DNA of 64,000 bases from Synechococcus sp. LTW-R. Lineage in GTDB: Bacteria; Cyanobacteriota; Cyanobacteriia; PCC-6307; Cyanobiaceae. This document shows positions 5,864 through 49,889 of this stretch, one piece after another; position 1 is the stretch's first letter, and the number at the start of each line of letters is the position of its first letter. Location of the stretch: positions 2,351,534 to 2,415,533 of the forward strand of contig NZ_CP059060.1 in assembly GCF_014217875.1 (NCBI RefSeq), read 5' to 3'. A program made the position numbers and the translations under genes. A model generated the notes under the pieces. It did not search any database and was not told the DNA's origin. It worked only from the letters and a program-made list of their open reading frames with translations.

Positions 5864-6407
5864 CTCACCATGCGTATCAAGGACATCATATCAAGGACAT
5901 CAAGACAAGCGATGAATTTTTCATGTTCTATCTGATCATAGGCGAAAGTTTGATTCCTCACAAATTCTGCAAGCTATCAAATTGGAGCTGCTGCACTGGG
6001 TTCATGATCTGAGCCGCCTGACACACCTAAATGCTGGATGAGAAACCCCTGCAATTTAAATTGCTGGGCTATGAAATAGTATAGAGATTTGCGGATTAAT
6101 ATGTATGGGCAGCGTTGCTTTCGTTCAATAGAACTTTCATGTTGCCAACTCACCCCAACCAAATCTCTTTTATTGCTCTCGACCTGAGCCAGTCCCGATT
6201 TCAGCCCTCATCAAACCGCCTTGGAGTTTAAATTTATCTTGCATAGCAAATTATCGATAACCAATGCTGATTAATGGATTTGCAGCGCGACAGCCCTGCC
6301 TATGTGAGTGCAGATAACTTATGTTTTCCTCCTCGAGATCCTGATTTTGAGCGTATCAAGCACTCGATTTGATACCCTTCTCTAAGGTTTGATTTTATTG
6401 TAAATAC
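5864..6407. other. AT-rich intergenic region at left edge of island
   Basis: A 544-base gap between the EVE start and the giant-protein stop. Base composition switches here from GC-rich to AT-rich. An inverted repeat with 7-base arms (gtatcaa/ttgatac, 6354-6375) lies about 35 bases past the giant-protein stop but has no T-run. Short open frames on both strands show no coding character. The promoter of the EVE gene must lie near 5864-5950. No RNA gene was recognised. Confidence 0.5.
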
Positions 6408-9400
6408 TTACAGCATGGGCATACCCGTAATTGAATCAATACCAATCCTATTTGAACTTGTAGCAGTAATGACATCTTCAACTTGCTCATTTGTCAGGTC
6501 TGAATCAAGACCGAGCAAGAGTGCTGCGAGACCTGCAACGTGCGGAGTTGCCATTGAAGTGCCGCTCCAGACTTCATAGCTACTGTCCTTGTAAGAAGAA
6601 TAAATTTCTACCCCTGGAGCAGTTACGTAATTGATGGTTGTTTCACCTGCCTTATTGGACCAGCTAGCAAACTCTTTGTTTCGATCGATAGCCCCGACAG
6701 CTATTCCGTAATCACTCGCATAGGCTGCCGGCTTCAAAGGTGAATCGAAACCGTTATTTCCAGATCCCATAACAATCACAACATTCTGCTCATGTGCGTA
6801 CTTCACTGCACTAAATATTTCAGTAGAACCGCCCCCCGCGAGTGAGAGATTAATTACATCAGCTCCATGATCTGTGGCCCAACGTATACCCGAAGCAATA
6901 TCTGTGTTGATACCAGCTCCATTTTCATCAAGAACTCGTATTGGCATGATGAGTGAAGACGGTGCCACTCCCCAAACACCCTGTCCGTCATCAGCACCAG
7001 CAATTATTCCTGCAACGTGAGTTCCATGTCCATTTAAATCATCAGGACTGTCGTCCATATCTACAAAATCAAAACCTTCAACCAACCGTCCTGAGAATTC
7101 CGGATGATCTAGATCAACACCTGTATCAATCACCGCAACAACAATATCTTTTCCGCTGCTGCCGTTTAAATTCTCCGATCCAGCCCAGACGCTTGGAGCA
7201 CCCAAGAGGTCCAGATTCCAATGATTACCAGCTAGATTTGCTCTTGTATCAAGAGATATCCCAGTTAAAAACTCTGAAGCATACTCAGCGTTAACCGTAC
7301 CATATCCGTCTACTGTTGAAAAGTTGTCAACAATAGAAAATGATACTTGATTAGAATTACTCGCCGGATTAGCTTCTGCATCAGATAGCAAAGATATATC
7401 TTTTACCGCTAAGTTGTACGTGCCCGTGTAGCGATTGTCCCAGCTTCTGACTTCTATGTAGTAGTCGCCGGAATACTCTGCGGTATATGAGAATTGCGAG
7501 TCACGCAATTGGCCCAGCAAAATATCATCATTCTGCGATAGTAGTCGGCCATCTTCTGCGCGTAGATACAAATATGTGTCTTCACAAGTAATACCATTAC
7601 TCGAGAAATCATATGTATAGCCCTCCCGAAGTTGTACATTGAACCAATCCGAGTCTCCAAGAGACTCGAGATTGCCGTTGATGCTATTATCAACATTCAG
7701 ATTACGTGCAGAGTCTGGTGTCTGACCACTGTCGTCAATAACCGAACTGTACCCTATCTCATAATCACCAGTAAAACGATTTTCCCAGCTATTTGCCTCT
7801 AAATAGTATTCACCTGAATACAATGCACGATAAATAAACTTAGAATCACGCTCTCTTCCAAGTACAATGTCATCGTTACTTGCTATCCAAGCCCCATTCT
7901 TATCGTAGAGATACATATAAGGATCTTCCAGGGATAACCCATTCATCCAGAATTCGTAGCCATTCCCCTCTTCTAGATGGACTTTAAACCAGTCTTTGTC
8001 GTTTATGAATGAAAGTGAGCTATGATCTTTGCCTCCTTCTTCTAGGTATCTATCTGTTGATTTGGAGGCATTAATATCGTTTTCTAGAACAGAGTAAGAA
8101 ATGCTGTACTCACCTTCAAACATATCATCATGTGAACTTGCGGCAAAATAAACTACCTGGTCGGACTCTGCTTCAATTACTAGCCTAGAATCTTTCGTTG
8201 AGGTTGCCCAAGAATTATCGTTACTGGTGAGCACTTCTCCATCCTTATCAACCAAATAAAGATGTGGATCTTCTAGGCTTATTCCATTGAGTCTAATTTC
8301 ATATGATTTACCCGTAGACACCGCAAGCTTGAACATGTCACGGTCTCCATTCCAATCGATCCTCCCTTCTGCGTTATTCCTATAAGTTAAATCTATTGCA
8401 TCTTCAGGGAAATTAGTAATATCATCATCGATTGTGTCAATCAAAAGGCTATATTCGCCTACAAACGAGTCGTCAAACGATCCTATGTCAATAAAATACT
8501 CGTCCGTAATACTAGAGGTATAGTAAAGGCGGCTGTCGCGGACGACCCCAAGTTGAATATCGTCATTATATGAGATAAGCTGCCCTTGGCTATCTCTAAG
8601 TCGTAAATATGGATCCTCAAGTGTGATGCCGTTTAGGCTTATCTTATATGTCTGATTTTCGCTGAACTCAACTTTGTACCAATCACGATCCCCTAGATAA
8701 TCAAGCGTTCCTCTTAGCTCTGTCTCCACTTCAACAGGATTCTTTGTTGAAGCATTGTCCGGCACAATATCAGATGTTTCTTCAATGCTAAGCGCTAGCT
8801 TATATGTTGTACTAAGCCTTTTATCAATCAGCTCAACTGAAATAAAGTAGTCACCTGCGTTTAGTGCTCCTAGCCTCGCCTCTTCGTCTAAATCTTCATC
8901 ATTAAAAGTAAGAGTATTTATTTTTTCTTTATCTGCATCGAAAATAGTGACCTGTAGATCTGCGCTATATCCGCCCAGCCTAACAAGAACATCTCCAAAA
9001 GAATCTACTCGTATTTTGAAAAAATCAATAGTATCAAGTGGACCCAGATACTCTGTAACCTCTGAACCCTGTATTTCGAGTGCAAGACCATCACCATGTG
9101 TATTGCCAGCCTCATCCTTGTAGATATTTGACGGCCATGGCATAGCTAGGTTGCTATCTGTAAATATTACCTTTTCAAATCCAATCGCATTTATTCTACG
9201 CTCGGTTGAGTTGTTAACGATTAGGTTGTTAGCTTCGAAAGTGTAGTCTTCTAAAGAACCTTTGAGGACAAGGGTGTCATCGCCATCGCCTGCGTCTATC
9301 TTGTCTCCGTCTGCTGCATTAACCAAGTCATTTCCTGCACCTGTATTGATTGTCAAGTCTCCATTTGAAGTGATTGTATCCCCACCACGTGAGCCGTAGA

Positions 9401-12400
9401 CAGTATTAAATCCAAGAACAGATATGGAACTACTAGATCCCTCGGCTAAATTAACTATCGATAGTCGGCCCAACTTGTCATCATACACAATTGTACTATC
9501 CGTACTGCCTCTGAAGTCTATTATATTGTCGAATAAAATATTGCCGCTGATAGATTCTATGCCACCTATAAAGCGATCTGTATTAGTGCCGCCTTTGACG
9601 ATCTTCCAGTCCTTTGTAAGAGAAATAGACTGTTCAAACTCTCGATAGTCAATGGTGTCATAACCTTCCGTATTGAAGTAATCATCACTGCCGCCTGAAG
9701 CGGTGAATACGTCGTCCCATCTAGTGCCATAAAAGGACTCGCTAGCATCACTTCCATTGTGAGTAATTACTATCTTTCCATCTCGATTTATGTCCTGCTT
9801 GAAGAACTCTTCTTTCTTCTCAACTTCCTCAGCATCCAAAAATCCGGTTGAAGATATTGCTCTTCCGGACAAATCTACTGTTAATATTGCTACCTGCTCC
9901 CTCTCGGGATTACCAAAAAGAATGTCGTAATAATCGCCTTCAGCGGACATTTCAACGCCAAATGGCTGGTATAAAGCCAAACTGGCTTCGGAAATATTGC
10001 TTAACCGGACTTCGGGCGTGTTAATGTAGAAACCACTCGATCCATTGAGTAAACTTGATTCACCCATATTCTCAATGATTTCTAGATCTTCTGCTATGAC
10101 TCCATTCTTATTTAAATCTCGATTGAAGTACCCTTCGTAGTCTTCAATATCCTGATCATTTAGTATTGAGCTTGACCACATCCTTTCTCCATACTGATTG
10201 AACCTGTAAAGCAAGTTTTCTTCTAGATTGCTCCGCCATGCAACTAAGAAGTGGTCGTCATATGTGCTTTTTATCGCTGTAGTAGCCGTCCATCCTGCAG
10301 CTAGTGACTGAAGTGGTGAAATGTATTGCTGTCCCTGCCTTAGTTCTATTGAATCATTGATTACAAATCTATCATCTCCTGAGATATTTAAAGTGACGTC
10401 GCCGTTTATATCGACTTCCTTGCTCAGGACTTTATTTGTGCTGTAGAGCCTGAAAAGCTCGCTGGTTCCATTCAGATCTATATATGAAACCTGAGCAGAG
10501 ATTATGGAATCGACATCATTTTGAGAGAGAGAGTATGAGTTGGAGTTAGCGCCGTCAATGGGAGTGTTATTGCGTAACCACTGAATCGAGGGGGAATGAA
10601 TGCCAGAGGAAGGAATGCCGTCCTGATCAACGAGAGAGGAGAGGTCAATGGAGAGAGTTTGCCCCTCGACGGCATTGCCAAGAATGGAGATGTTGTGTTG
10701 TGGTGAGTCGTTTGAGTTTTGAACGACTAGAGGATCAGAGAAGAAGGAAGTTTGTCCACCGCGAGAGTCAGTGGAGATAACGTGAAGCCGCAGAGATGAA
10801 CCAACGAGTGATTGGTCATCAGGTATTTGGAAGGAGGAAGAATTAGCGGAGGAGATATTGTTCCATTGACCAGAGGAGGAGAGTCTTTGCCATTGGAAAG
10901 AGGGAGAGGCTGGTCCGTCCGGGTCAACGAGGTTAGAGAGGGAGGCAGAGAGTGTATTTCCTTCTAGAGGTTCGCCAGAGATGGCAAGAGAGGCAGTGGC
11001 TTGATGATCAAAATCAAGGACTGTAGATGGGTTTGATAGTGTGAAGGATTCGTTATTGCCGAAGTTATCTCGATAGGAGATCTGAGCAGAGATTATGGAA
11101 TCGACATCATTTTGAGAGAGAGAGTATGAGTTGGAGTTAGCGCCGTCAATGGGAGTGTTATTGCGTAACCACTGAATCGAGGGGGAATGAATGCCAGAGG
11201 AAGGAATGCCGTCCTGATCAACGAGAGAGGAGAGGTCAATGGAGAGAGTTTGCCCCTCGACGGCATTGCCAAGAATGGAGATGTTGTGTTGTGGTGAGTC
11301 GTTTGAGTTTTGAACGACTAGAGGATCAGAGAAGAAGGAAGTTTGTCCACCGCGAGAGTCAGTGGAGATAACGTGAAGCCGCAGAGATGAACCAACGAGT
11401 GATTGGTCATCAGGTATTTGGAAGGAGGAAGAATTAGCGGAGGAGATATTGTTCCATTGACCAGAGGAGGAGAGTCTTTGCCATTGGAAAGAGGGAGAGG
11501 CTGGTCCGTCCGGGTCAACGAGGTTAGAGAGGGAGGCAGAGAGTGTATTTCCTTCTAGAGGTTCGCCAGAGATGGCAAGAGAGGCAGTGGCTTGATGATC
11601 AAAATCAAGGACTGTAGATGGGTTTGATAGTGTGAAGGATTCGTTATTGCCGAAGTTATCTCGATAGGAGATCTGAGCAGAGATTATGGAATCGACATCA
11701 TTTTGAGAGAGAGAGTATGAGTTGGAGTTAGCGCCGTCAATGGGAGTGTTATTGCGTAACCACTGAATCGAGGGGGAATGAATGCCAGAGGAAGGAATGC
11801 CGTCCTGATCAACGAGAGAGGAGAGGTCAATGGAGAGAGTTTGCCCCTCGACGGCATTGCCAAGAATGGAGATGTTGTGTTGTGGTGAGTCGTTTGAGTT
11901 TTGAACGACTAGAGGATCAGAGAAGAAGGAAGTTTGTCCACCGCGAGAGTCAGTGGAGATAACGTGAAGCCGCAGAGATGAACCAACGAGTGATTGGTCA
12001 TCAGGTATTTGGAAGGAGGAAGAATTAGCGGAGGAGATATTGTTCCATTGACCAGAGGAGGAGAGTCTTTGCCATTGGAAAGAGGGAGAGGCTGGTCCGT
12101 CCGGGTCAACGAGGTTAGAGAGGGAGGCAGAGAGTGTATTTCCTTCTAGAGGTTCGCCAGAGATGGCAAGAGAGGCAGTGGCTTGATGATCAAAATCAAG
12201 GACTGTAGATGGGTTTGATAGTGTGAAGGATTCGTTATTGCCGAAGTTATCTCGATAGGAGATCTGAGCAGAGATTATGGAATCGACATCATTTTGAGAG
12301 AGAGAGTATGAGTTGGAGTTAGCGCCGTCAATGGGAGTGTTATTGCGTAACCACTGAATCGAGGGGGAATGAATGCCAGAGGAAGGAATGCCGTCCTGAT

Positions 12401-15400
12401 CAACGAGAGAGGAGAGGTCAATGGAGAGAGTTTGCCCCTCGACGGCATTGCCAAGAATGGAGATGTTGTGTTGTGGTGAGTCGTTTGAGTTTTGAACGAC
12501 TAGAGGATCAGAGAAGAAGGAAGTTTGTCCACCGCGAGAGTCAGTGGAGATAACGTGAAGCCGCAGAGATGAACCAACGAGTGATTGGTCATCAGGTATT
12601 TGGAAGGAGGAAGAATTAGCGGAGGAGATATTGTTCCATTGACCAGAGGAGGAGAGTCTTTGCCATTGGAAAGAGGGAGAGGCTGGTCCGTCCGGGTCAA
12701 CGAGGTTAGAGAGGGAGGCAGAGAGTGTATTTCCTTCTAGAGGTTCGCCAGAGATGGCAAGAGAGGCAGTGGCTTGATGATCAAAATCAAGGACTGTAGA
12801 TGGGTTTGATAGTGTGAAGGATTCGTTATTGCCGAAGTTATCTCGATAGGAGATCTGAGCAGAGATTATGGAATCGACATCATTTTGAGAGAGAGAGTAT
12901 GAGTTGGAGTTAGCGCCGTCAATGGGAGTGTTATTGCGTAACCACTGAATCGAGGGGGAATGAATGCCAGAGGAAGGAATGCCGTCCTGATCAACGAGAG
13001 AGGAGAGGTCAATGGAGAGAGTTTGCCCCTCGACGGCATTGCCAAGAATGGAGATGTTGTGTTGTGGTGAGTCGTTTGAGTTTTGAACGACTAGAGGATC
13101 AGAGAAGAAGGAAGTTTGTCCACCGCGAGAGTCAGTGGAGATAACGTGAAGCCGCAGAGATGAACCAACGAGTGATTGGTCATCAGGTATTTGGAAGGAG
13201 GAAGAATTAGCGGAGGAGATATTGTTCCATTGACCAGAGGAGGAGAGTCTTTGCCATTGGAAAGAGGGAGAGGCTGGTCCGTCCGGGTCAACGAGGTTAG
13301 AGAGGGAGGCAGAGAGTGTATTTCCTTCTAGAGGTTCGCCAGAGATGGCAAGAGAGGCAGTGGCTTGATGATCAAAATCAAGGACTGTAGATGGGTTTGA
13401 TAGTGTGAAGGATTCGTTATTGCCGAAGTTATCTCGATAGGAGATCTGAGCAGAGATTATGGAATCGACATCATTTTGAGAGAGAGAGTATGAGTTGGAG
13501 TTAGCGCCGTCAATGGGAGTGTTATTGCGTAACCACTGAATCGAGGGGGAATGAATGCCAGAGGAAGGAATGCCGTCCTGATCAACGAGAGAGGAGAGGT
13601 CAATGGAGAGAGTTTGCCCCTCGACGGCATTGCCAAGAATGGAGATGTTGTGTTGTGGTGAGTCGTTTGAGTTTTGAACGACTAGAGGATCAGAGAAGAA
13701 GGAAGTTTGTCCACCGCGAGAGTCAGTGGAGATAACGTGAAGCCGCAGAGATGAACCAACGAGTGATTGGTCATCAGGTATTTGGAAGGAGGAAGAATTA
13801 GCGGAGGAGATATTGTTCCATTGACCAGAGGAGGAGAGTCTTTGCCATTGGAAAGAGGGAGAGGCTGGTCCGTCCGGGTCAACGAGGTTAGAGAGGGAGG
13901 CAGAGAGTGTATTTCCTTCTAGAGGTTCGCCAGAGATGGCAAGAGAGGCAGTGGCTTGATGATCAAAATCAAGGACTGTAGATGGGTTTGATAGTGTGAA
14001 GGATTCGTTATTGCCGAAGTTATCTCGATAGGAGATCTGAGCAGAGATTATGGAATCGACATCATTTTGAGAGAGAGAGTATGAGTTGGAGTTAGCGCCG
14101 TCAATGGGAGTGTTATTGCGTAACCACTGAATCGAGGGGGAATGAATGCCAGAGGAAGGAATGCCGTCCTGATCAACGAGAGAGGAGAGGTCAATGGAGA
14201 GAGTTTGCCCCTCGACGGCATTGCCAAGAATGGAGATGTTGTGTTGTGGTGAGTCGTTTGAGTTTTGAACGACTAGAGGATCAGAGAAGAAGGAAGTTTG
14301 TCCACCGCGAGAGTCAGTGGAGATAACGTGAAGCCGCAGAGATGAACCAACGAGTGATTGGTCATCAGGTATTTGGAAGGAGGAAGAATTAGCGGAGGAG
14401 ATATTGTTCCATTGACCAGAGGAGGAGAGTCTTTGCCATTGGAAAGAGGGAGAGGCTGGTCCGTCCGGGTCAACGAGGTTAGAGAGGGAGGCAGAGAGTG
14501 TATTTCCTTCTAGAGGTTCGCCAGAGATGGCAAGAGAGGCAGTGGCTTGATGATCAAAATCAAGGACTGTAGATGGGTTTGATAGTGTGAAGGATTCGTT
14601 ATTGCCGAAGTTATCTCGATAGGAGATCTGAGCAGAGATTATGGAATCGACATCATTTTGAGAGAGAGAGTATGAGTTGGAGTTAGCGCCGTCAATGGGA
14701 GTGTTATTGCGTAACCACTGAATCGAGGGGGAATGAATGCCAGAGGAAGGAATGCCGTCCTGATCAACGAGAGAGGAGAGGTCAATGGAGAGAGTTTGCC
14801 CCTCGACGGCATTGCCAAGAATGGAGATGTTGTGTTGTGGTGAGTCGTTTGAGTTTTGAACGACTAGAGGATCAGAGAAGAAGGAAGTTTGTCCACCGCG
14901 AGAGTCAGTGGAGATAACGTGAAGCCGCAGAGATGAACCAACGAGTGATTGGTCATCAGGTATTTGGAAGGAGGAAGAATTAGCGGAGGAGATATTGTTC
15001 CATTGACCAGAGGAGGAGAGTCTTTGCCATTGGAAAGAGGGAGAGGCTGGTCCGTCCGGGTCAACGAGGTTAGAGAGGGAGGCAGAGAGTGTATTTCCTT
15101 CTAGAGGTTCGCCAGAGATGGCAAGAGAGGCAGTGGCTTGATGATCAAAATCAAGGACTGTAGATGGGTTTGATAGTGTGAAGGATTCGTTATTGCCGAA
15201 GTTATCTCGATAGGAGATCTGAGCAGAGATTATGGAATCGACATCATTTTGAGAGAGAGAGTATGAGTTGGAGTTAGCGCCGTCAATGGGAGTGTTATTG
15301 CGTAACCACTGAATCGAGGGGGAATGAATGCCAGAGGAAGGAATGCCGTCCTGATCAACGAGAGAGGAGAGGTCAATGGAGAGAGTTTGCCCCTCGACGG

Positions 15401-25367: not shown

Positions 25368-25450
25368 CGCTAGTACTTCTCCCCAACCACAGCGTATATC
25401 ATCATAGCCAACTCGTCAACAGAGTTGTGTTGCTCTCGGCTTTAAAGCCA

Positions 25451-26977: not shown

Positions 26978-26984
26978 TTTGTTG

Positions 26985-29273: not shown

Positions 29274-29275
29274 AA

Positions 29276-29818: not shown

Positions 29819-29836
29819 CCCACAACCCACGCGTCA

Positions 29837-30205: not shown

Positions 30206-30276
30206 TCCAGCGAGACTAGTGGCATATCTTTTGCTGTGACACTTCCTCGCTTGGCTGCTGCATATCGGGGTTTTTC

Positions 30277-37700: not shown

Positions 37701-40700
37701 GGAGAAATGTAAGAGCACAGAAAAACATATAAGACGCAGAGGGTAAGAAGAAAAATACGAGGGAAAAGACGCACAAGAGAGGAAACAGAAAGAAAGGAAA
37801 AGCCGTAGTAAGAAAGGGGAAAAAGAGCGGCAGAAAAAAAGAGGCGGGAAGAGCGAAAGGGAGCGAACAAAACGGATCGGAGTGCGCAAAAGATGGAGGG
37901 AACGAAGAGAGTGGAAAAGAGAAAAGCTATTCAGTGGAAGCGCCCGAGGGCATAGGATACAGAGACAAGAAAAGAACGGACGCACGAGACAAAATAAGAG
38001 AGGGAAGGACAAAAAGGGGGGGGAGAGAGAAGAAAGAAAGGAGGGGGGCCAACCACGACCTAATAAATAAAGAACAGGGGAGGAAAAAAAAGGAGACAAA
38101 AAAGAGAGCAAAGGGATAAAAGGTAGGAGAAAGAGACAGTGCGAGAGAGAGAGGAGGGAGAAAACAGAGACGTGTAAGAGGGGAAAAAAGGGATGAAAAC
38201 AAAGGAATAAAGGACATGACAGCAGTCGCGTGGCAGCTGGTGTGAGTGCTCAAGCAACGGGTACATCAGCGGTTGCGATTGGTGATGACACCAGAGCCAC
38301 CGACAACGCAGTGGCAGTCGGTATTAGCGCCAACGCAACAGCTGCACAAGCAGTTGCGGTTGGTGATGACTCCGTCGCCACCACCCAGTCGATCGCACAG
38401 TTGCCAGTGGCCCGGCCAACGGTGCAACACAGTCGGTTGGTTTTTTTCTGACGCGAATGCAGTGACGCTGAACGGCATCGCCGTTGGTAACAGCGCACAA
38501 GCGACGGACGAAAACGCGACAGCGATCGGCGCCCTGTCCAGTGCCACCACCAACGCAGTGGCAGCTGGTGTGAGCGCCTCGGCAACAGGTGCACAAGCGG
38601 TTGCGGTTGGTGATGACTCCGTCGCCACCACCCAGTCGATCGCAACAGGTGCCAGTGCCCGAGCCAACGGTGCAACAACAGTTGCGGTTGGTTATGACGC
38701 GAATGCAGTGACGCTCAACGGCATCGCGGTTGGTAACAGCGCACAAGCCACTGACGAAAACGCCACAGCGATCGGCGCCCTGTCCAGTGCCACCACCAAC
38801 GCAGTGGCAGCTGGTGTGAGCGCCAGAGCACTAGGTGCATCAGCGGTTGCGGTTGGTGATGACTCCGTCGCCACCACCCAGTCGATCGCAACAGGTGCCA
38901 GTGCCCGAGCCAACGGTGCAACAACAGTTGCGGTTGGTTATGACGCGAATGCAGTGACGCTGAACGGCATCGCCGTTGGTAACAGCGCACAAGCCACGGA
39001 CGACAACGCGACAGCGATTGGCGCCCTGTCCAGTGCCACCACCAACGCAGTGGCAGCTGGTGTGAGCGCCTCAGCAACAGGTGCATCAGCGGTTGCGGTT
39101 GGTGATGACTCCGTCGCCACCACCCAGTCGATCGCAACAGGTGCCAGTGCCCGAGCCAACGGTGCAACAACAGTTGCGGTTGGTTATGACTCGAATGCGT
39201 GACGCTGACGGCATCGCGTTTTAACAGCGACAAGCCACGGACGAAAAAACGCCCCAGCGTCGGGGCGCCCTGTCCAGTGCCACCACCAACGCAGTGGCAG
39301 CTGGTGTGAGTGCTCAAGCAACGGGTACATCAGCGGTTGCGATTGGTGATGACACCAGAGCCACCGACAACGCAGTGGCAGTCGGTATTAGCGCCAACGC
39401 AACAGCTGCACAAGCAGTTGCGGTTGGTGATGACTCCGTCGCCACCACCCAGTCGATCGCAACAGGTGCCAGTGCCCGAGCCAACGGTGCAACAACAGTT
39501 GCGGTTGGTTATGACGCGAATGCAGTGACGCTCAACGGCATCGCCGTTGGTAACAGCGCACAAGCCACTGACGAAAACGCGACAGCGATCGGCGCCCTGT
39601 CCAGTGCCACCACCAACGCAGTGGCAGCTGGTGTGAGCGCCTCAGCAACAGGTGCATCAGCGGTTGCGGTTGGTGATGACTCCGTCGCCACCACCCAGTC
39701 GATCGCAACAGGTGCCAGTGCCCGAGCCAACGGTGCAACAACAGTTGCGGTTGGTTATGACGCGAATGCAGTGACGCTCAACGGCATCGCCGTTGGTAAC
39801 AGCGCACAAGCCACGGACGAAAACGCCACAGCGATCGGCGCCCTGTCCAGTGCCACCACCAACGCAGTGGCAGCTGGTGTGAGTGCTCAAGCAACGGGTA
39901 CATCAGCGGTTGCGATTGGTGATGACACCAGAGCCACCGACAACGCAGTGGCAGTCGGTATTAGCGCCAACGCAACAGCTGCACAAGCAGTTGCGGTTGG
40001 TGATGACTCCGTCGCCACCACCCAGTCGATCGCAACAGGTGCCAGTGCCCGAGCCAACGGTGCAACAACAGTTGCGGTTGGTTATGACGCGAATGCAGTG
40101 ACGCTGAACGGCATCGCCGTTGGTAACAGCGCACAAGCCACGGACGAAAACGCGACAGCGATCGGCGCCCTGTCCAGTGCCACCACCAACGCAGTGGCAG
40201 CTGGTGTGAGCGCCTCAGCAACAGGTGCATCAGCGGTTGCGGTTGGTGATGACTCCGTCGCCACCACCCAGTCGATCGCAACAGGTGCCAGTGCCCGAGC
40301 AACGGGCCAAACCAGTTTGCGGTTGGTTATGACGCGAATGCAGTGACGCTCAACGGCATCGCGGTTGGTAACAGCGCACAAGCCACTGACGAAAACGCCA
40401 CAGCGATCGGCGCCCTGTCCAGTGCCACCACCAACGCAGTGGCAGCTGGTGTGAGCGCCTCGGCAACAGGTGCACAAGCGGTTGCGGTTGGTGATGACTC
40501 CGTCGCCACCACCCAGTCGATCGCAACAGGTGCCAGTGCCCGAGCCAACGGTGCAACAACAGTTGCGGTTGGTTATGACGCGAATGCAGTGACGCTCAAC
40601 GGCATCGCCGTTGGTAACAGCGCACAAGCGACGGACGAAAACGCGACAGCGATCGGCGCCCTGTCCAGTGCCACCACCAACGCAGTGGCAGCTGGTGTGA

Positions 40701-43648
40701 GTGCTCAAGCAACGGGTACATCAGCGGTTGCGATTGGTGATGACACCAGAGCCACCGACAACGCAGTGGCAGTCGGTATTAGCGCCAACGCAACAGCTGC
40801 ACAAGCAGTTGCGGTTGGTGATGACTCCGTCGCCACCACCCAGTCGATCGCAACAGGTGCCAGTGCCCGAGCCAACGGTGCAACAACAGTTGCGGTTGGT
40901 TATGACGCGAATGCAGTGACGCTGAACGGCATCGCCGTTGGTAACAGCGCACAAGCCACTGACGAAAACGCCACAGCGATCGGCGCCCTGTCCAGTGCCA
41001 CCACCAACGCAGTGGCAGCTGGTGTGAGCGCCTCAGCAACAGGTGCATCAGCGGTTGCGATTGGTGATGACTCCGTGGCCACCACCCAATCGGTCGCAAC
41101 AGGTGCCAGTGCCCGAGCCAACGGTGCAACAACAGTTGCGATTGGTTATGACGCGAATGCAGTGACGCTGAACGGCATCGCCGTTGGTAACAGCGCACAA
41201 GCGACTGATGATCAAGCGATCGCAATCGGCGCCAAATCGACAGCTACCACCAACGCCGTTGCTACTGGTCCGAGCGCAGAGGCTTCTGGTGTCAATGCTG
41301 TTGCGATCGGTCTTGATGCCACCGCAGTGACGCTCAATGGCATCGCCGTTGGTAACAGCGCACAAGCCACTGATGAAGAGGCAATCGCGGTTGGCAACCT
41401 TTCCTCGGCTACTACAAGTTCAGTTGCCATGGGTAACCAGGCGGTAGCAAATGGTTCCAGCTCGGTCTCTATTGGTAAATTCACCACAGCATCGACCACT
41501 GATGCTGTTGCTATTGGATCCAGTGCTATTGCATCTGGTGTCCAGTCAATTGCTCAAGGTCGTGATTCTGGAGCTGCCGGATCTAACGCATCGTCCATTG
41601 GTACCAACTCACGTGCGGCAAACGCCAACAGCATTGCTTTTGGTACTAGCGCCAGATCTAATGCTGTTCGAGCGGTCGCGGTAGGTACTGAGTCTTCCGC
41701 CTCCAAAGCTGACGCAGTTGCGGTTGGCTCTAGCACTGAGGCAGCTGGCGTAAGTTCTGTCGCTGTTGGTCTCGATGCAACAGCCTCCACAATCAACGCG
41801 ATCGCCGTTGGTAACAGCGCACAAGCGACTGATGATCAAGCGATCGCAATCGGCGCCAAATCGACAGCTACCACCAACGCCGTTGCTACTGGTCCGAGCG
41901 CAGAAGCTTCTGGTGTCAATGCTGTTGCGATCGGTCTTGATGCCACCGCAGTGACGCTCAATGGCATCGCCGTTGGTAACAGCGCACAAGCCACTGATGA
42001 AGAGGCAATCGCGGTTGGCAACCTGTCTACGGCAACTACAAGTTCGATTGCTATGGGCAATCAATCTGTTGCCAACGCCTCCAGTTCACTGGCAGTTGGT
42101 CGTCAGGCTCAAGCAACGGGTATCAATTCGATTGCCCAAGGCGTCTCTGCGTCTGCTTCTGGCCTCCGCTCCACTGCCATAGGTCAGACATCTGGTGCAG
42201 ACAGCACTGATTCGACTGCAGTTGGTACTAACGCCCAAGCTTCAGCCACTGGAGCTACCGCGATTGCAACCAACTCAGCCGCCCAGGGTCGTAACTCGAT
42301 TGCTGTTGGTACATCCGCACGTGCAGTCACTTCTTCTGACGTGGCCGTCGGCACTAATTCAGTTGCTGACAGTCAGCAGGGGCCATTCGCTGCAACGGCA
42401 GTTGGTCGAGGAGCTCAAGCCCGAGGTCAAGGAACAATTGCTATTGGTGAAGGAGCCCAAGCAATCAACCAAGGCGGAACATCTGCAGGTGGTGCAGTAG
42501 CAATCGGTTCACGGTCGCAAGCTCTCGGTGAGGACTCCTCCGCGTTCGGTCTCGAAGCTGACGCGCTTGGAGCACGATCCACAGCTCTTGGTACTCAGTC
42601 ATCTGCTACGGCACTTAATTCAACCGCTCTTGGTGCTGGAGCAAGGGCTGATTACTTTGGATCCACCGCAATTGGTGCCGGAGCTGCTACCTGGAGATCT
42701 AATCAGGTTGTAATTGGAACACAGAGCTCCAATTACGCACTTCCTGGTCTCGCACCTGGTGGTAATTATGTTGGCAAAGCCAATCAGAATCCTTCGATTA
42801 ACGGCACAAGGATTCTCACCACTGATGCAAACGGCGTTCTTGGTACAGGCTTTGACCCTGACTTTGTTGAAAGCTCAATTCAGCAGCTGGGCCAGGGCAT
42901 CAAATCTCAAGTTGCTATGTCTGCAGCCTTGAGTGCAGTACCCACCTACGTCCCCAGTGACGATGAGTTCGCTCGATGTGGAATTGGTGCAGGTGGCGCT
43001 TCCAGTGTTGGTGCAGCATCACTTGGCTGTGCTATCAAGATTGGCAACCGTGCCTCACTTAACGGTGCTGTTGCTATCTCTAACAACACCGATTACGGAT
43101 ATGGAACACTTAGCGGAACTGTCGGTCGTGTCGGCCTCACATTCCCGCTGGGCGTTATTCACAAGAAGGCAACCCCTGCTTCAGTAGATGATCAGGCAAT
43201 TGCGGCTCTTGTGACTCAACGTGATGCTCAGATTACTTCTCTTAATGAGCAGATTTCTGATCTCACTGATCAAATTGAAGCCCTCACATCAAAGGCTTCT
43301 TCTGAACAGCCCAATGAACAGACTGATCAACTTATACAGGTTCTACGTGAACAAATTTCTGAGCTTGAGTCTCAGCTGTCTGATTACTCTGATCTTGCCG
43401 CTGCTAACCAGGAGCTCAACGATAAGCTTGCTCAACTTCAAGCACAGATTTCTGCCCTTGAAGCTGCAGCATCAGCACCTCCTTCCTCTCAGATCTCTGA
43501 TTTGGAAGATCGCTTGAATCGTCAAGACGAACTTATTCAGAAGCTTCTTAATCGCTTAGAAGCCTCTAATGCGTCCCCATCTATTCAATCCTCGCTTCCA
43601 CCATCAGATGCTTCTATAGTTGCTGTTCCAGTCAAACCTGTCTTCTAA
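30277..43648 (+). CDS. YadA-like trimeric autotransporter adhesin, frame broken in this sequence
   Basis: One very large gene read in pieces through all three frames. Order: TTG start and positively charged leader; hydrophobic signal (GLFVALLSIGKLLTPMAAFA, about residues 57-76); a long head of 13-14-residue YadA repeats (AVAVGxxAxAT pattern) arranged mostly as 246-bp supra-repeats; a non-repetitive head tail; a YadA-anchor-like segment; and a C-terminal coiled coil. The reading frame shifts near 31566-31740, 31925-31950, 34335-34510, 34770-34845, 38390-38455, 39190-39270 and 40300-40320, and is interrupted by the purine block 35105-38222. All breaks coincide with locally garbled repeat copies, so the real gene is probably intact and about 10 kb or longer. 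A hairpin terminator follows the stop. Known YadA proteins are trimeric outer-membrane adhesins. Confidence 0.75.
32058..34340 (+). CDS. YadA-like adhesin, central head-repeat piece
   Basis: About 760 codons of uninterrupted head repeat with no start of its own: the apparent GTG is simply the Val of the repeat (VTLNGIAVGNSAQATDEN). The 82-residue unit is six YadA 13-14-mers. Variant units insert an extra 28-residue pair (TEAVAVGISATATGASAVAV) or the QATGTSAVAIGDDTRATDN version. The frame ends at a garbled stretch from 34327. It should be read as the continuation of the gene beginning at 30277, not as a separate gene. Confidence 0.7.
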   Translation: MTLNGIAVGNSAQATDDNATAIGALSSATTNAVAAGVSASATGASAVAVGDDSVATTQSIATGASARANGATTVAVGYDANAVTLNGIAVGNSAQATDENATAIGALSSATTNAVAAGVSASATGASAVAIGDDSVATTEAVAVGISATATGASAVAVGDDSVATTQSIATGASARANGATTVAVGYDANAVTLNGIAVGNSAQATDENATAIGALSSATTNAVAAGVSATATGAQAVAVGDDSVATTQSIATGASARANGATTVAVGYDANAVTLNGIAVGNSAQATDENATAIGALSSATTNAVAAGVSASATGASAVAVGDDSVATTQSIATGASARANGATTVAVGYDANAVTLNGIAVGNSAQATDENATAIGALSSATTNAVAAGVSAQATGTSAVAIGDDTRATDNAVAVGISANATAAQAVAVGDDSVATTQSIATGASARANGATTVAVGYDANAVTLNGIAVGNSAQATDENATAIGALSSATTNAVAAGVSARALGASAVAIGDDSVATTQSIATGASARANGATTVAVGYDANAVTLNGIAVGNSAQATDDNATAIGALSSATTNAVAAGVSARALGASAVAIGDDSVATTQSIATGASARANGATTVAVGYDANAVTLNGIAVGNSAQATDENATAIGALSSATTNAVAAGVSASATGASAVAVGDDSVATTQSIATGASARANGATTVAVGYDANAVTLNGIAVGNSAQATDENATAIGALSSATTNAVAAGVSASATGASAVAIG
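35105..38222. other. About 3.1-kb extreme purine-rich low-complexity block
   Basis: On the + strand 35280-36800 is almost entirely G and A, with G-runs up to about 15 bases. Pyrimidines become somewhat more frequent after about 36960. There are no recognisable genes. Long minus-strand open frames (Phe/Pro/Ser/Leu only) exist because a pyrimidine-only strand cannot contain a stop codon. Immediately outside, the adhesin repeat is garbled (35075-35102 and 38225-38235). The left part stops in the repeat at the codons for SSATT and the right part resumes at NAVAAG, so the repeat is continuous if the block is removed. Most likely an assembly or base-calling artefact; a true polypurine tract is the alternative. 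Confidence 0.7.
38455..39200 (+). CDS. YadA-like adhesin, head-repeat piece after the purine block
   Basis: This stretch resumes the same 246-bp head repeat (DANAVTLNGIAVGNSAQAT) in a different frame from the copy before the purine block. An extra in-frame piece at 38230-38395 precedes it, separated by a garbled 60-base stretch. It ends at another garbled stretch (39190-39270) where several single bases are missing relative to neighbouring copies. No independent start exists. Confidence 0.6.
39294..40346 (+). CDS. YadA-like adhesin, further head-repeat piece
   Basis: 350 codons of head repeat, including two copies of the longer variant with QATGTSAVAIGDDTRATDN and ISANATAAQAVAVGDD. The repeats are intact until about 40300, where a short deletion-like change (cgagcaacgggccaaacca in place of cgagccaacggtgcaacaa) shifts the frame into that of the C-terminal piece. 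This is again part of the single adhesin gene. Confidence 0.6.
   Translation: MAAGVSAQATGTSAVAIGDDTRATDNAVAVGISANATAAQAVAVGDDSVATTQSIATGASARANGATTVAVGYDANAVTLNGIAVGNSAQATDENATAIGALSSATTNAVAAGVSASATGASAVAVGDDSVATTQSIATGASARANGATTVAVGYDANAVTLNGIAVGNSAQATDENATAIGALSSATTNAVAAGVSAQATGTSAVAIGDDTRATDNAVAVGISANATAAQAVAVGDDSVATTQSIATGASARANGATTVAVGYDANAVTLNGIAVGNSAQATDENATAIGALSSATTNAVAAGVSASATGASAVAVGDDSVATTQSIATGASARATGQTSLRLVMTRMQ
40343..43648 (+). CDS. YadA-like adhesin, C-terminal piece with anchor-like domain and coiled coil
   Basis: 1101 codons. Regular supra-repeats run to about 41210 and are followed by diversified head repeats (TEAAGVSSVAVGLDATAST and others), including a second-order duplication of a block with DDQAIAIGAKSTATTNAVAT, to about 42710. 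Next comes a segment resembling the YadA translocator: helix QQLGQGIKSQVAMSAALSAV (about residues 849-868), then strands GAASLGCAIKIGNRASLNGA and GTLSGTVGRVGLTFPLG. Unlike classical YadA, which ends there, about 165 residues follow, mostly heptad-like coiled coil (ITSLNEQISDLTDQIEAL), ending KPVF. The Cys pair in the anchor-like segment is unusual. A strong terminator lies just downstream. Confidence 0.75.
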   Translation: MTLNGIAVGNSAQATDENATAIGALSSATTNAVAAGVSASATGAQAVAVGDDSVATTQSIATGASARANGATTVAVGYDANAVTLNGIAVGNSAQATDENATAIGALSSATTNAVAAGVSAQATGTSAVAIGDDTRATDNAVAVGISANATAAQAVAVGDDSVATTQSIATGASARANGATTVAVGYDANAVTLNGIAVGNSAQATDENATAIGALSSATTNAVAAGVSASATGASAVAIGDDSVATTQSVATGASARANGATTVAIGYDANAVTLNGIAVGNSAQATDDQAIAIGAKSTATTNAVATGPSAEASGVNAVAIGLDATAVTLNGIAVGNSAQATDEEAIAVGNLSSATTSSVAMGNQAVANGSSSVSIGKFTTASTTDAVAIGSSAIASGVQSIAQGRDSGAAGSNASSIGTNSRAANANSIAFGTSARSNAVRAVAVGTESSASKADAVAVGSSTEAAGVSSVAVGLDATASTINAIAVGNSAQATDDQAIAIGAKSTATTNAVATGPSAEASGVNAVAIGLDATAVTLNGIAVGNSAQATDEEAIAVGNLSTATTSSIAMGNQSVANASSSLAVGRQAQATGINSIAQGVSASASGLRSTAIGQTSGADSTDSTAVGTNAQASATGATAIATNSAAQGRNSIAVGTSARAVTSSDVAVGTNSVADSQQGPFAATAVGRGAQARGQGTIAIGEGAQAINQGGTSAGGAVAIGSRSQALGEDSSAFGLEADALGARSTALGTQSSATALNSTALGAGARADYFGSTAIGAGAATWRSNQVVIGTQSSNYALPGLAPGGNYVGKANQNPSINGTRILTTDANGVLGTGFDPDFVESSIQQLGQGIKSQVAMSAALSAVPTYVPSDDEFARCGIGAGGASSVGAASLGCAIKIGNRASLNGAVAISNNTDYGYGTLSGTVGRVGLTFPLGVIHKKATPASVDDQAIAALVTQRDAQITSLNEQISDLTDQIEALTSKASSEQPNEQTDQLIQVLREQISELESQLSDYSDLAAANQELNDKLAQLQAQISALEAAASAPPSSQISDLEDRLNRQDELIQKLLNRLEASNASPSIQSSLPPSDASIVAVPVKPVF

Positions 43649-43657
43649 CGACACTCA

Positions 43658-43688
43658 AAAGCCCGATCTAAGATCGGGCTTTTTTTTT
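43658..43688 (+). terminator. Intrinsic terminator after the adhesin gene
   Basis: A perfect stem, agcccgatct (43660-43669) with agatcgggct (43671-43680), is followed by eight T's. It sits 10 bases after the adhesin stop. Its T-run abuts the ATG of the next gene directly, so that gene is either expressed by read-through or from an internal promoter without a normal leader. Confidence 0.9.
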
Positions 43689-44423
43689 ATGCGTTCACTC
43701 CTCACATTCATTCCCTGCCTTCTCTGCCTTCAGTCTCCTGTTTTTGCCGCGTGTTTTGACACCCTCTCTCGACCATCTGCTTCGAATTATCAACCAATCC
43801 CAATCTGCCCTGTCACAGAGATCCACAACTGCTTCGCCGCTCCACCCCTTGTTCTCATATTTGATTTCATACCATCTCCTGTCAATGCACTTCCTGCTTC
43901 ATCACTCACACCATCACAACTTTCTGCGAGACTAAGAGATCTGGTACAAAGAAATATCGATAACAACACAATCCTCAAGTACGTCTGTCGCGCACTTCCC
44001 CTAAAGCCTTTTGACTTGCACGACTGCTTTAGTTCTTCAGATTCCAGGACACCACTCTATTCATCTCTTCCATTCTTTGCATCTGGCCTCCTCTTCCCCT
44101 CTCGGTCTAAATTCCCTTATTATCACAAATACCGACCTGCCAGTCTCCCAGGATACTTTGCAGAATATAATTGTCACCCTCAAAAACAAGACCAGATCCA
44201 GTTGAGGCAGTATCACTGGGGGCCTACTCAGAAAGAATATATCAAGGACGAAGTTCCGGTGATCTCTAACTACTCTGGAACATCCACGCTTGTATTGAAA
44301 ATATCTACTTTCTCAACTTCAAGTTTCCTGCAAAAGAAATCCAGAAAAACCATGGGCTTCTCGATTGACCCAAGTGCACCGCAAATTCTCTATCAGAACC
44401 TAGTGCCAGATCGTTTAAGATAG
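43689..44423 (+). CDS. Secreted Cys-containing protein of unknown function
   Basis: 244 residues from ATG 43689. The N-terminus MRSLLTFIPCLLCLQSPVFA is a clear signal peptide, with cleavage likely after VFA. The mature protein is rich in Ser, Pro, Phe and Tyr with scattered Cys (ACFDTL, PICPV, HNCFAA, YVCRAL, HDCFSS, YNCHP), suggesting several disulfides in the periplasm or outside the cell. No family was recognised. There is no Shine-Dalgarno site: eight T's of the terminator precede the ATG. A TTG at 43620 in the same frame starts inside the adhesin gene but would give a non-signal-like extension. The end overlaps the convergent glycosyltransferase gene by 31 bases. Confidence 0.65.
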   Translation: MRSLLTFIPCLLCLQSPVFAACFDTLSRPSASNYQPIPICPVTEIHNCFAAPPLVLIFDFIPSPVNALPASSLTPSQLSARLRDLVQRNIDNNTILKYVCRALPLKPFDLHDCFSSSDSRTPLYSSLPFFASGLLFPSRSKFPYYHKYRPASLPGYFAEYNCHPQKQDQIQLRQYHWGPTQKEYIKDEVPVISNYSGTSTLVLKISTFSTSSFLQKKSRKTMGFSIDPSAPQILYQNLVPDRLR

Positions 44424-45847
44424 TCAGTATTATATTGCTCCGACTTTTCATCCCTCAGTTGCTTTAGTCTCCTTCGTATCGCTTCAATTTCTTTATCCCA
44501 ACTTCCAAAGCAATCTTGCCTTATAATTTCAACGCTTTCCCACCAGGCCATTCTGTTCCCTGAGGTTCCATACCTCCACTCGGGGACTTTGGGTACAAGC
44601 GCCAGTGTCTTTTTGCCCATAGCTCCCCCAAAGTGAACCGCAGTTTGTTGGACCGTAACCACCACATCCACTCTCTCAACCTGTTCGCAGAAAACTTCCA
44701 TATCGTTCTTTTCATTAAACTCGCATGATATCTGTATACCGAGATTCTCATGTGCTTTCTCGATCTCGAGTCGAGTCTCACCATATTGTAAATTAACCCA
44801 ATCTATCCCTTGCTCTTTTAGCAATGGGTAAAACGCTTCAAGACTTAGACTTCTACGCTCTTTCGTCCTTAACTCACCGCCTCCCCTCCATGCTATTCCA
44901 ACACAAAGACGTGATGTACGGGTATTGTTAAATCTCGAGCTCTCTCTTGCGACTACATACGGTTTCACTGGCTTTATGCTTTTCCCTTTTGTGTTTCTAC
45001 AGATATAGCCTAGGCTCGCAATCCCAAGGATCGCTTGACAAGCTCCTATTTCTTCCGCTTCTAGTCTGCTAGTAGCACGAATCCCTTTTAGTGACCTCTT
45101 CAGTATGGGTTCAAGTCTCCTATCGCATAACAATGTTATTGACTTGCACTCTTTCTTTATCTCTTGAAGTAAACCTGCAAACATTATTACATCGCCATAG
45201 CCCTGCTCAACCATCACAAGCACGTCCTTTCCCCTTAGGCTTTCACCTGGTTTCCAGGTTGGTTCAATCCCTGTGATTCTGGATATACCCGGTCGCTGCT
45301 CATATATCTTCCAACCTTCCCTATATCGCCCCCTTCGGAGGAGTGTATAAGCAATATTTGTGCGAGCTTGTTCACCCTCTGGCAAATACTCTATCGCCTT
45401 AAGATAGTATTCTTCGGCAATATCGCGTCTGCCGGCATCTTCAAGGGCAAGCGCAATATTATTCATTGAGGGTCCATGCTTCGGGTTGAGTCTAAGCGCA
45501 TCTTCGTAATATCCTATTGCTTCTGTGGTATTCATTGTTTCTCTCTCGAGATTCGCTAAGTTGTAGTAAAGTCCAACTCTTTTGTATCCCGTCTCAACAG
45601 CTCTTTTGTATGCAGCTATTGCGCCTTCGGTGTCATTCAGTTCCGCTCTTGCAAAGCCGCAGTAAAACAGAGCCTCACCAGCGATATCTGTTTCATGTTC
45701 CTCTAAAGCAGTTGCGAACAGAAGCTCGCCGCTTATTAATGCATCCATGTAGTTTCTGTCTTGTATGAAGGCCTCTATCTCCCTTAGGTACTTATCAAAT
45801 TCCTTCTTTTTTCTCGATCTTTTATCTGTTCCATGTCTTTTTGACAT
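44393..45847 (-). CDS. TPR protein with heptosyltransferase-like glycosyltransferase domain (paralog)
   Basis: 484 residues from ATG 45847, chosen because GGAGGAGG lies five bases upstream; the frame is open to 45886. TPR repeats cover about 25-180 (VGLYYNLANLERETMNTTEA, GPSMNNIALALEDAGRRDIA). The GT domain has MVEQGYGDVIMFAGLL near 210, VGIAWRGGGE near 315 and VQQTAVHFGGAMGKKTL near 396-412. It shares this architecture and all three motifs with 25451-26977. The N-terminus is strongly basic (KRHGTDKRSRKKK). It is the last gene of a minus-strand trio after a sulfotransferase-like and an acyltransferase gene, one base after the latter's stop. Confidence 0.85.
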   Translation of the reverse strand: MSKRHGTDKRSRKKKEFDKYLREIEAFIQDRNYMDALISGELLFATALEEHETDIAGEALFYCGFARAELNDTEGAIAAYKRAVETGYKRVGLYYNLANLERETMNTTEAIGYYEDALRLNPKHGPSMNNIALALEDAGRRDIAEEYYLKAIEYLPEGEQARTNIAYTLLRRGRYREGWKIYEQRPGISRITGIEPTWKPGESLRGKDVLVMVEQGYGDVIMFAGLLQEIKKECKSITLLCDRRLEPILKRSLKGIRATSRLEAEEIGACQAILGIASLGYICRNTKGKSIKPVKPYVVARESSRFNNTRTSRLCVGIAWRGGGELRTKERRSLSLEAFYPLLKEQGIDWVNLQYGETRLEIEKAHENLGIQISCEFNEKNDMEVFCEQVERVDVVVTVQQTAVHFGGAMGKKTLALVPKVPEWRYGTSGNRMAWWESVEIIRQDCFGSWDKEIEAIRRRLKQLRDEKSEQYNTDYLKRSGTRF

Positions 45848-45848
45848 G

Positions 45849-46373
45849 CTACCTCCTCCGCTTCTCAGTGCATGATGCTCCTCCATATGCGACCCACCCT
45901 GCGCCGATGCTTCTTGTCACAATGCTTCCTGATCCAATTATTGCGCCATTCCCGATCACGACACCTGGATGAATAATCGAATTCATTCCAATGAGAACAT
46001 CTTTGCCTATATGAATCATTTCGCTTGATGGTTCCTGAAAACGCATCGGTTTTTCTGTCGACATCCCGTGGCTTGTTCCGCATATCGTGACCCCCGCCGC
46101 GATCATTGTGTTATCACCGATTGTTAGCCCACTCCTCACCTCGTATATCTTGACGCCTGGTCCAAACGAGACGTCTTTGCCTGACTTTATTCTGCCCGAC
46201 GACGTCCTAAATATCACTCCAGGGTAGAACGTATTTCTTTCACCTACATCGATTGATCCGTTCAATCCGGTGCAAAATATGCATCCTGGTTCTATATGAG
46301 ACGATGATGGCAGCTTGATCTTCGGGCCTTCAATTATTGTCGTCTCGTGTATGAAAGGAAAATCTCTACTCAT
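45849..46373 (-). CDS. Left-handed beta-helix (hexapeptide repeat) acyltransferase
   Basis: 174 residues of imperfect hexapeptide repeats (IGDNTMIAAGVTICGTSHG, IGKDVLIGMNSIIHPGVVIG, NGAIIGSGSIVT), with the HG pair and the loop between coils typical of sugar O- or N-acetyltransferases of the CysE/LacA/NodL class. Such trimers transfer acetyl from acetyl-CoA to sugars (family knowledge). The ATG overlaps the stop of the sulfotransferase-like gene (ATGA) and the TPR-glycosyltransferase gene follows after one base, so all three are probably translated together and act on the same surface glycan. Confidence 0.85.
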   Translation of the reverse strand: MSRDFPFIHETTIIEGPKIKLPSSSHIEPGCIFCTGLNGSIDVGERNTFYPGVIFRTSSGRIKSGKDVSFGPGVKIYEVRSGLTIGDNTMIAAGVTICGTSHGMSTEKPMRFQEPSSEMIHIGKDVLIGMNSIIHPGVVIGNGAIIGSGSIVTRSIGAGWVAYGGASCTEKRRR

Positions 46374-47131
46374 ATCGCAGCTGCATAAATGCGCGCATCA
46401 TCCTCGAACAGGGCTTGTGCAATCTCGTACAATTCAGCATCCATTATCGCAGATGCGAACTTATTGTCACTAACGAAATTTTCAATTGAATCAAGCTTCT
46501 TGTCCTTCAGCTCTTTCTTTGAGTCTAGTTCTCTTATATTCGGCACCATGCTCTCGCCGTTCTGTATTGTTTCCATTTGCACTCCCCTTTCTCCTAGCCA
46601 CCAAGCAAGTTTATCTAGGCTACCTTCCTTGAAAATATTTGTGTATGACTCTGGCTTGAAGATCAAGCATGTTTCCTGTGGACACCACCAGTGGCTTGCT
46701 ACTGAAAGGTCCTTCCTGCTTGCCAACATTCTTGCTAGTTCCATCATGCTCAGACTATCCCATTGCCTTCCTGTCATTTGATTCCATGTATCAGCGCAGC
46801 CATCTCTATTGCTCTTGAGATGAGCGGGAATCATTGCCAATCTTTTCGCTGGATGCTGAATAACTGCAAAACTATTGCACCTATATTTGTACAGTTCTTT
46901 TAATTCGATTGCGAATATGTGATCGTTTTGTTGGAGCGCTTGATCTTGTCCTGCAATCTCAAATCCATTCTCTCTGAACAGTGCGCGTCGTATTTGATTG
47001 CAACTTGCCCCCGGTACTCTTGAATACATAATCTTTTTCTCCCAAAAGCCAAGGGAGTGCAGCCTTGAGAATTCCAGCCATTCGTTCCTGAGTGAGTGGG
47101 AGCCGGACTCGTTGAATCTCACATTTATCAT
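46370..47131 (-). CDS. Sulfotransferase-family-like protein
   Basis: 253 residues. KKIMYSRVPGASCNQIRRAL near residues 32-51 resembles the 5'-phosphosulfate-binding start of Golgi-type sulfotransferases (normally K-x-RVPKTGSTS). FAVIQHPAKRLAMIPAHLKS near 89-108 resembles the 3'-phosphate-binding block (RHPxxRLxSxY). DTWNQMTGRQWDSLSMMELA fits the central region. The expected lysine/threonine pair of the first motif is altered (PGASCN), so activity is uncertain. ATG 47131 has AGGA upstream. It is the first gene of the trio with an acyltransferase and a TPR-glycosyltransferase, and the last island gene before psbC. Confidence 0.6.
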   Translation of the reverse strand: MINVRFNESGSHSLRNEWLEFSRLHSLGFWEKKIMYSRVPGASCNQIRRALFRENGFEIAGQDQALQQNDHIFAIELKELYKYRCNSFAVIQHPAKRLAMIPAHLKSNRDGCADTWNQMTGRQWDSLSMMELARMLASRKDLSVASHWWCPQETCLIFKPESYTNIFKEGSLDKLAWWLGERGVQMETIQNGESMVPNIRELDSKKELKDKKLDSIENFVSDNKFASAIMDAELYEIAQALFEDDARIYAAAI

Positions 47132-47254
47132 TTATTTATCCTACCAGAACCTTGGCCACATATCTTTTGTCTGGATTCCAGATTGCAATTTTTTCATCTT
47201 CCTGCTTCGACCTACCCCTTTTGCTACTTCTTTTGCTCCCCTTATTCGTCCAAT

Positions 47255-47282
47255 AAAAAGCCCTCGCCATTCGGCGAGGGCT
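47255..47282 (-). terminator. Intrinsic terminator of psbD-psbC
   Basis: Read on the minus strand, agccctcgcc (47273-47282) pairs perfectly with ggcgagggct (47259-47268) across a four-base loop and is followed by a T-run (47255-47259). It lies about 20 bases past the psbC stop. It also marks the right boundary of the AT-rich island. Confidence 0.9.
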
Positions 47283-49732: not shown

Positions 49733-49756
49733 GGGTGGGAAAACCGCGAGCTGTGG

Positions 49757-49775
49757 GTTACCGGGCGATGGTAAC
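49757..49775 (-). promoter_or_regulatory. Inverted repeat in the psbD leader
   Basis: Six-base arms gttacc (49757-49762) and ggtaac (49770-49775) flank a seven-base spacer, 25 bases upstream of the psbD ATG. It could be an operator or a small 5'-UTR hairpin. There is no direct evidence for either, and a chance palindrome is possible. Confidence 0.25.
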
Positions 49776-49889
49776 AACGTTCATTCGCGCTGCGAGAGGG
49801 GTTTTGACGGGCTGACACGGCACGTCACCATTGCGTTTTTGGGTATATGTGCCTACCGCTCTCTCAGACGGGTGCGTGGGGGAGCGAAG

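Follow-up and report, generated by a model that had tools for sequence, protein, structure and literature searches.

A strain-specific island of predicted giant surface proteins and TPR-fused glycosyltransferases beside psbDC in Synechococcus sp. LTW-R

The stretch of DNA analysed here (the window; 64,000 nucleotides) is the final 64 kb of the single 2,415,533-base contig of Synechococcus sp. LTW-R, and positions are those of the window unless a contig is named. Between an EVE-domain gene (5399..5863, minus strand) and psbC and psbD (47305..49777, minus strand), the computed G+C content falls to 48.8%, compared with 65.4% and 63.7% for the DNA on either side, which bears out the AT-rich island that an earlier note had proposed from the sequence. 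The island holds three gene groups: GT9a and a giant exoprotein gene on the minus strand; GT41, a methyltransferase, and an adhesin on the plus strand; and, next to psbC and again on the minus strand, an ST-like gene, an acyltransferase, and GT9b. The mix of surface proteins and modifying enzymes described in the earlier note stands for the giant protein, a trimeric autotransporter adhesin (TAA), GT41, two TPR-GT9 proteins, the methyltransferase, and the acyltransferase; its sulfotransferase is unconfirmed. The scan of the larger island ORFs turned up no gene for a polymerase, a flippase, or sugar-nucleotide synthesis.

The giant exoprotein (6319 aa; 6408..25367, minus strand) has a unique N-terminus, repeats, PPC domains, and a C-terminal subtilase (S8) domain; a Pfam scan found no autotransporter domain in it. 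Its repeat array (10993-24237) consists of 21 copies of a 591-bp unit encoding 197 aa with an Ig-like character, identical at all 591 positions, together with two identical 417-bp inserts, and the repeats are 25% Ser+Thr. Such identical copies point either to a very recent expansion or to a copy number set by the assembler. As the earlier note had it, a TPR glycosyltransferase lies directly upstream: GT9a (508 aa; 25451..26977, minus strand), a TPR protein homologous to GT9b, lies 83 bp from the giant gene in the same orientation, and a shared transcript is therefore favoured.

GT41 (764 aa; 26979..29273, plus strand), a TPR protein with a SPINDLY/OGT-type glycosyltransferase domain, is followed by a SAM methyltransferase (Methyltransf_11; 180 aa; 29276..29818, plus strand) and then by the adhesin, in a row on one strand with gaps of 2 bp and 458 bp, the arrangement given in the earlier note. 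The family assignment of GT41 held when it was searched: PF13844 scored 97.4 bits against a cut-off of 25, several TPR models were above cut-off N-terminal to the glycosyltransferase domain, the match to SPINDLY had an E value of 6e-57, and the nearest solved structures were Arabidopsis SPINDLY and bacterial and human OGT. The GNH and FNxxxxKI motifs are retained in the alignment, and the score against the NCBIfam model of the NGT family, NF049992 (15.4 bits), fell far below its cut-off of 1000. A search of genome contigs with the window GT41 gave five loci at 25-28% identity, all from uncultured Veillonellaceae/Selenomonadales and several from rumen. The closest relatives of the window GT41 (genomes G004 and G014) have no adjoining TAA in the stretches read; in the same-genus genome G024 (contig C4), a GT41 and a methyltransferase adjoin an ORF that spans 2248 aa or more and carries Ig and RCC1 domains. 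This is one of several TPR-GT41 loci in the genus with genes for exported proteins nearby (L098, L100, and L101); the others have a pilin-like gene (G004) or genes for an RTX protein and an ABC exporter (G024 contig C23).

The adhesin (30277..43648, plus strand) carries YadA heads (PF05658, E value of 5.5e-93), a putative membrane anchor at about 42,900-43,200, and a coiled-coil-like C-terminus. The YadA membrane anchor family PF03895 gave no match in the window adhesin itself, yet the adhesin can be aligned at its C-terminus with eight relatives, and two of these (L215 and L218) do match PF03895. In these nine C-termini (window 43200-43648 with L213, L215, L218, L219, L224, L227, L228, and L230), two Cys in the anchor region are common to all; a coiled coil is also apparent after the anchor, where it would face the periplasm. 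Ser and Thr together make up 23-24% of two adhesin pieces, and judging from composition, the Ser/Thr richness of these pieces and of the giant repeats would allow O-glycosylation. The adhesin is not one intact frame; its YadA-like pieces lie in differing frames, probably through assembly error. Within its repeat array is a purine-rich tract (about 35,150-38,150, no strand assigned) of 71-95% A+G, with G runs of up to 15 and frame breaks on both sides. Aligned to a clean adhesin repeat, the tract scored 15-22, within the range of 60 shuffles, as against 142-300 at its edges, so that the test for a degraded version of that repeat was negative; it is a probable assembly artefact, and we infer that it is failed-quality sequence placed in an unresolved repeat. 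Downstream, orf267 (43620..44423, plus strand) matches no Pfam family and overlaps the ends of both neighbours.

The third group is a tight operon adjoining psbC, composed of an ST-like gene (253 aa, no family assigned; 46370..47131), a hexapeptide-repeat acyltransferase gene (174 aa; 45849..46373) that it overlaps by 4 bp, and GT9b (497 aa; 44393..45886), all on the minus strand. The structure model of GT9b, a TPR protein, confidently predicts a GT-B fold of the GT9 type, with matches that include TibC, an autotransporter heptosyltransferase. PF01075 found no match at an E value of 0.01 in either GT9a or GT9b; some distant relatives do carry it. The GT9-like label that the earlier note gave to these TPR glycosyltransferases is thus supported by the predicted fold of GT9b and not by the Pfam family. 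The hexapeptide gene came closest to sugar and polysaccharide O-acetyltransferases, with all scores far below cut-off. For the ST-like protein, no Pfam sulfotransferase model matched in five aligned members, and hhalign gave a motif-level similarity only (E value of 0.06), so the label of sulfotransferase is not upheld; no fold match was obtained either, from a predicted model that was poor and hence uninformative. Among 271 family genomes with a completeness of 90% or more, the ST-like gene was found in the window's own and in no other. Relatives of GT9b (74%; P0003) and of the ST-like protein (71%; P0123) share the same contig tally (6 contigs, the longest of 1,404,521 bp), which suggests that the cassette is probably present in another sequenced strain outside the genomes searched.

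The earlier note had suggested comparing the locus, as a unit, across Synechococcus genomes. It was not found in any other genome searched: the N-terminal 370 aa of the giant protein are matched in 1 of 400 family genomes, again the window's own, and together with the ST-like search this rules out a conserved unit among the genomes searched. In five relatives (G013, G014, G015, G020, and G023), the EVE gene lies beside murD, 103-134 kb from psbC, and the interval is filled by conserved core genes, with no island genes found there. In the window genome, murD is at G000 C1:65713-67080 and cobQ at 191784-193259 (66 kb and 192 kb into the contig), so that the cobQ-to-murD block, which fills the psbC-EVE interval in those relatives, is here on the other side of psbDC and the island sits at the junction; with maf, cobQ, and murD all elsewhere in the genome, the island now ends at EVE. 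Its psbC edge borders a site at which several relatives carry autotransporter genes. In G083 and G005, both of the window's genus, a locus pairing the adhesin with a fused enzyme (described below) lies between psbC and maf; G341 has an adhesin without the fusion, flanked by psbC on one side and by a weak match to maf on the other; in G106 an adhesin adjoins maf at a contig end; and G013, G005, and G020 have autotransporter ORFs of another kind at the psbC-maf site. This placement was seen for 2 of 10 fusion-adhesin pairs, the other eight lying elsewhere or on contigs where the site was not seen. The window TAA ends 3.7 kb from psbC; given the autotransporters of these relatives, the island begins at a site that several of them use for such genes.

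Counting the window's own, 128 of the 400 family genomes have TPR-GT9 relatives. At 20 single-contig TPR-GT9 loci, compared with 20 control stretches from the same genomes, an ORF of at least 2000 aa was found once (controls, 0 of 20) and an ORF of at least 1500 aa once (controls, 1 of 20). This spread, and the near absence of giant ORFs, rules out dedicated GT9-giant systems as a general rule; by the refuting condition of the earlier note, that of enzymes conserved where giants are missing, the GT9 family as such is not a dedicated one. The link drawn in the earlier note between the GT9 enzymes and the giant protein accordingly gained no comparative support, the family being conserved in genomes that lack such proteins.

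The pairing of adhesin and GT41 fared better. The C-terminal 249 residues of the adhesin are matched in 48 of 400 family genomes, its own included, and we covered 32 of the best 33 places outside the window (G189 C15 was left out). In a first set, 12 of the best 16, a GT41 ORF of about 1100 aa lay close by in 9 of 12 places. None of the 20 control stretches, taken from different genomes apart from G062, had one; of the remaining three adhesin places, two were without a GT41 and one stops at a contig edge. In a second set, made up of the 4 left from the best 16 and 16 of the next 17, none of 20 places had the enzyme, several being cut by contig ends, so that it was present at 9 of the 32 adhesin loci in all. 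All seven of these ORFs that were scanned proved to be fusions of Sulfotransfer_2 (PF03567), TPRs, and GT41; identity to the first of eight aligned is 62-89%, and the gene is transcribed divergently from the adhesin, no more than 2.2 kb away.

A search with the enzyme gave matches in 13 of 400 family genomes. The full fusion is present in 11 of them, and in 10 of those 11, from six genera, it adjoins a divergent YadA-head adhesin ORF (the contig of G264 reaches no further than the adhesin start, and G156 has the adhesin split over two ORFs). The eleventh, G227, has a TAA 10 kb off. The matches in G291 and G067 are without an aligned sulfotransferase part; no adhesin was found within 34 kb of the match in G291, and a YadA-head ORF lies 1.6 kb from that in G067. 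A 319-aa protein without an assigned family accompanies the fusion in all 10 pairs, and a second Sulfotransfer_2-like gene in 7 of 10. UDP-galactopyranose mutase genes stand beside it in two, G311 (L217:4186-5337) and G296 (L221:4998-6113), where galactofuranose may be the sugar involved. A DDD motif in the 319-aa protein (L217:5316-6272, alignment A4) would fit a GT-A glycosyltransferase. Among the matches listed, a protein search gave 98 fusion-family clusters at E values of 3e-296 or below, 92 of them with both Pfam domains; the few source names resemble "TPR repeat containing Spindly family protein." The window genome (G000) has no match to the fusion, and its GT41 aligns to the fusion profile at 23% identity (hhalign, E value of 9e-10); it is therefore at best an analogue of the fusion and would be a replacement by a distant relative. 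The GT41-adhesin link proposed in the earlier note is thus supported by ten other picocyanobacteria that pair a TAA with a TPR-GT41, but it does not extend to the 23 of 32 adhesin loci without one.

On balance, we consider it somewhat probable that the TPR-fused glycosyltransferases of the island glycosylate the adhesin and the giant protein in the cytoplasm before export. Glycosylation of autotransporter passengers in the cytoplasm prior to export is established for NGT and BAHT enzymes, according to the consulted portion of PMC8151025. The TPR arm of GT41 would bind the unfolded, Ser/Thr-rich passenger of the adhesin and attach a sugar to it, and the methyltransferase encoded next door may cap that sugar; export of the adhesin through Sec and BAM, and its trimerisation, would follow. 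The giant protein, whose decoration in this strain is plausible only, would be treated likewise by GT9a, and the operon of acyltransferase and GT9b might modify the glycan or a cell-surface polysaccharide. A broader proposal, which we put forward tentatively and hold to be rather doubtful, is that picocyanobacteria have a dedicated adhesin-decorating machine in which a fusion of sulfotransferase, TPRs, and a SPINDLY-type enzyme acts with a divergently encoded giant TAA, located beside psbC in two of ten cases, to build a sulfated glycoprotein coat, and that the window strain swapped the fusion for separate TPR-GT41 and TPR-GT9 enzymes and added a second giant protein.

The evidence can be divided differently, in a manner that overlaps with our best explanation and that we rate only just short of an even chance: GT41, with the methyltransferase, would alone serve the adhesin, and GT9a, GT9b, the acyltransferase, and the ST-like protein would serve other acceptors, gathered at a hotspot with no purpose in common. 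GT41 with a TAA is the only pairing seen to recur, GT9b stands with the acyltransferase and ST-like genes in an operon of its own, the relatives of GT9b and the ST-like protein share a contig tally as if travelling together, and G013, G005, and G020 place other kinds of autotransporter at the psbC-maf site; the closeness of GT9a to the giant gene, which follows it after 83 bp in the same orientation, speaks against such a division. It is unlikely, in our judgement, that the transferases belong to a lipopolysaccharide or exopolysaccharide island that merely neighbours the surface proteins, even if such mixed islands are ordinary in picocyanobacteria. Glycosyltransferases and glycoside hydrolases predominate among those genes of marine Synechococcus islands that have a known function, and these islands have giant ORFs too (PMC2441476, consulted portion), TPR-GT9 relatives occur across 128 of 400 genomes and not near giant ORFs, and the hexapeptide gene, at scores far below cut-off, leans toward sugar and polysaccharide O-acetyltransferases. 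TPR arms are, however, present in three island transferases, a trait of OGT and SPY, which modify proteins, the scanned ORFs (small ones aside) include none of the polymerase, flippase, or sugar-nucleotide genes, and a TAA adjoins a TPR-GT41 in ten other genomes.

We also considered whether the locus is in part an artefact of assembly, its repeat arrays, broken adhesin, and EVE-psbC adjacency arising from misjoined repeats. The purine-rich tract and frame breaks of the adhesin, the 21 repeat copies without a difference over 591 bp, and the location of cobQ (192 kb along the contig) and murD (66 kb) rather than between psbC and EVE would all fit. The two outer junctions, psbC to the ST-like gene and the giant gene to EVE, nevertheless lie outside the repeats (gaps of 173 and 544 bp), and the shared contig tally of the GT9b and ST-like relatives suggests that this part is real; we regard an artefact of this kind as improbable. 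Enzymes of the HMW1C type we take to belong to the GT41 family. Returning to glycosylation before export, one close known parallel is Knh of Kingella, a YadA-like trimeric autotransporter glycosylated in the cytoplasm by an HMW1C-type N-glycosyltransferase (PMC9592894 and PMC8151025, in the portions consulted). As there, the window pairs a GT41-family enzyme with a YadA-type trimeric autotransporter; unlike HMW1C, the window enzyme resembles SPINDLY and OGT, with TPRs, and is not of the NGT type. The BAHT enzymes TibC and Aah, which form a dodecameric ring with iron, heptosylate the autotransporters TibA and AIDA-I (PMC8151025, in part, and titles of the TibC entries). The window GT9 enzymes differ from these in their N-terminal TPR arm, and the neighbour of GT9a differs from TibA and AIDA-I in being a subtilase-tipped, Ig-repeat protein with no autotransporter domain found. 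With the fusion locus of its relatives, found at the psbC-maf site in two genomes, the window shares a TAA of the same family and a TPR-GT41; it departs from them in that its GT41 has a gene to itself, oriented like the adhesin gene, and that a sulfotransferase could not be recognised.

Giant surface proteins on variable islands are also known from marine Synechococcus, in SwmA, SwmB, and the giant-ORF islands, and swmA lies in the same island as a glycosyltransferase (PMC2441476, PMC4949707, and PMC7522525, each in part); TAA, TPR-GT41, and GT9-TPR are not named in the consulted portions of these three papers. The statement in the earlier note that no equivalent had been described is therefore too strong, given Knh with HMW1C (PMC9592894) and the Synechococcus islands of giant ORFs and glycosyltransferases (PMC2441476), as far as the parts consulted go. 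Among the open-licence PMC papers listed, no title or abstract opening dealt with this pairing of adhesin and glycosyltransferase in cyanobacteria or with the sulfotransferase-TPR-GT41 fusion. The best reading is that glycosylated autotransporters are a known kind and that what is new here is the lineage, plus the fused enzyme in relatives, with a chemistry that we infer. The window island is a strain-specific variant of a glycosylated-autotransporter system, with a second giant protein.

The surface proteins of picocyanobacteria decide their encounters with grazers, phages, and particles, and to our knowledge, few systems that decorate these proteins have been described. The gene pair recurring in six genera offers targets for knock-out, an enzyme joining sulfotransferase and glycosyltransferase would, unusually, allow a single protein to make a sulfated glycoprotein, and a variable genome site beside psbC is tied to one class of surface protein. 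Outside the window, one further ORF of 610 aa (L095:15565-17397) has 43% G+C within G+C-rich DNA and is a possible acquired gene.
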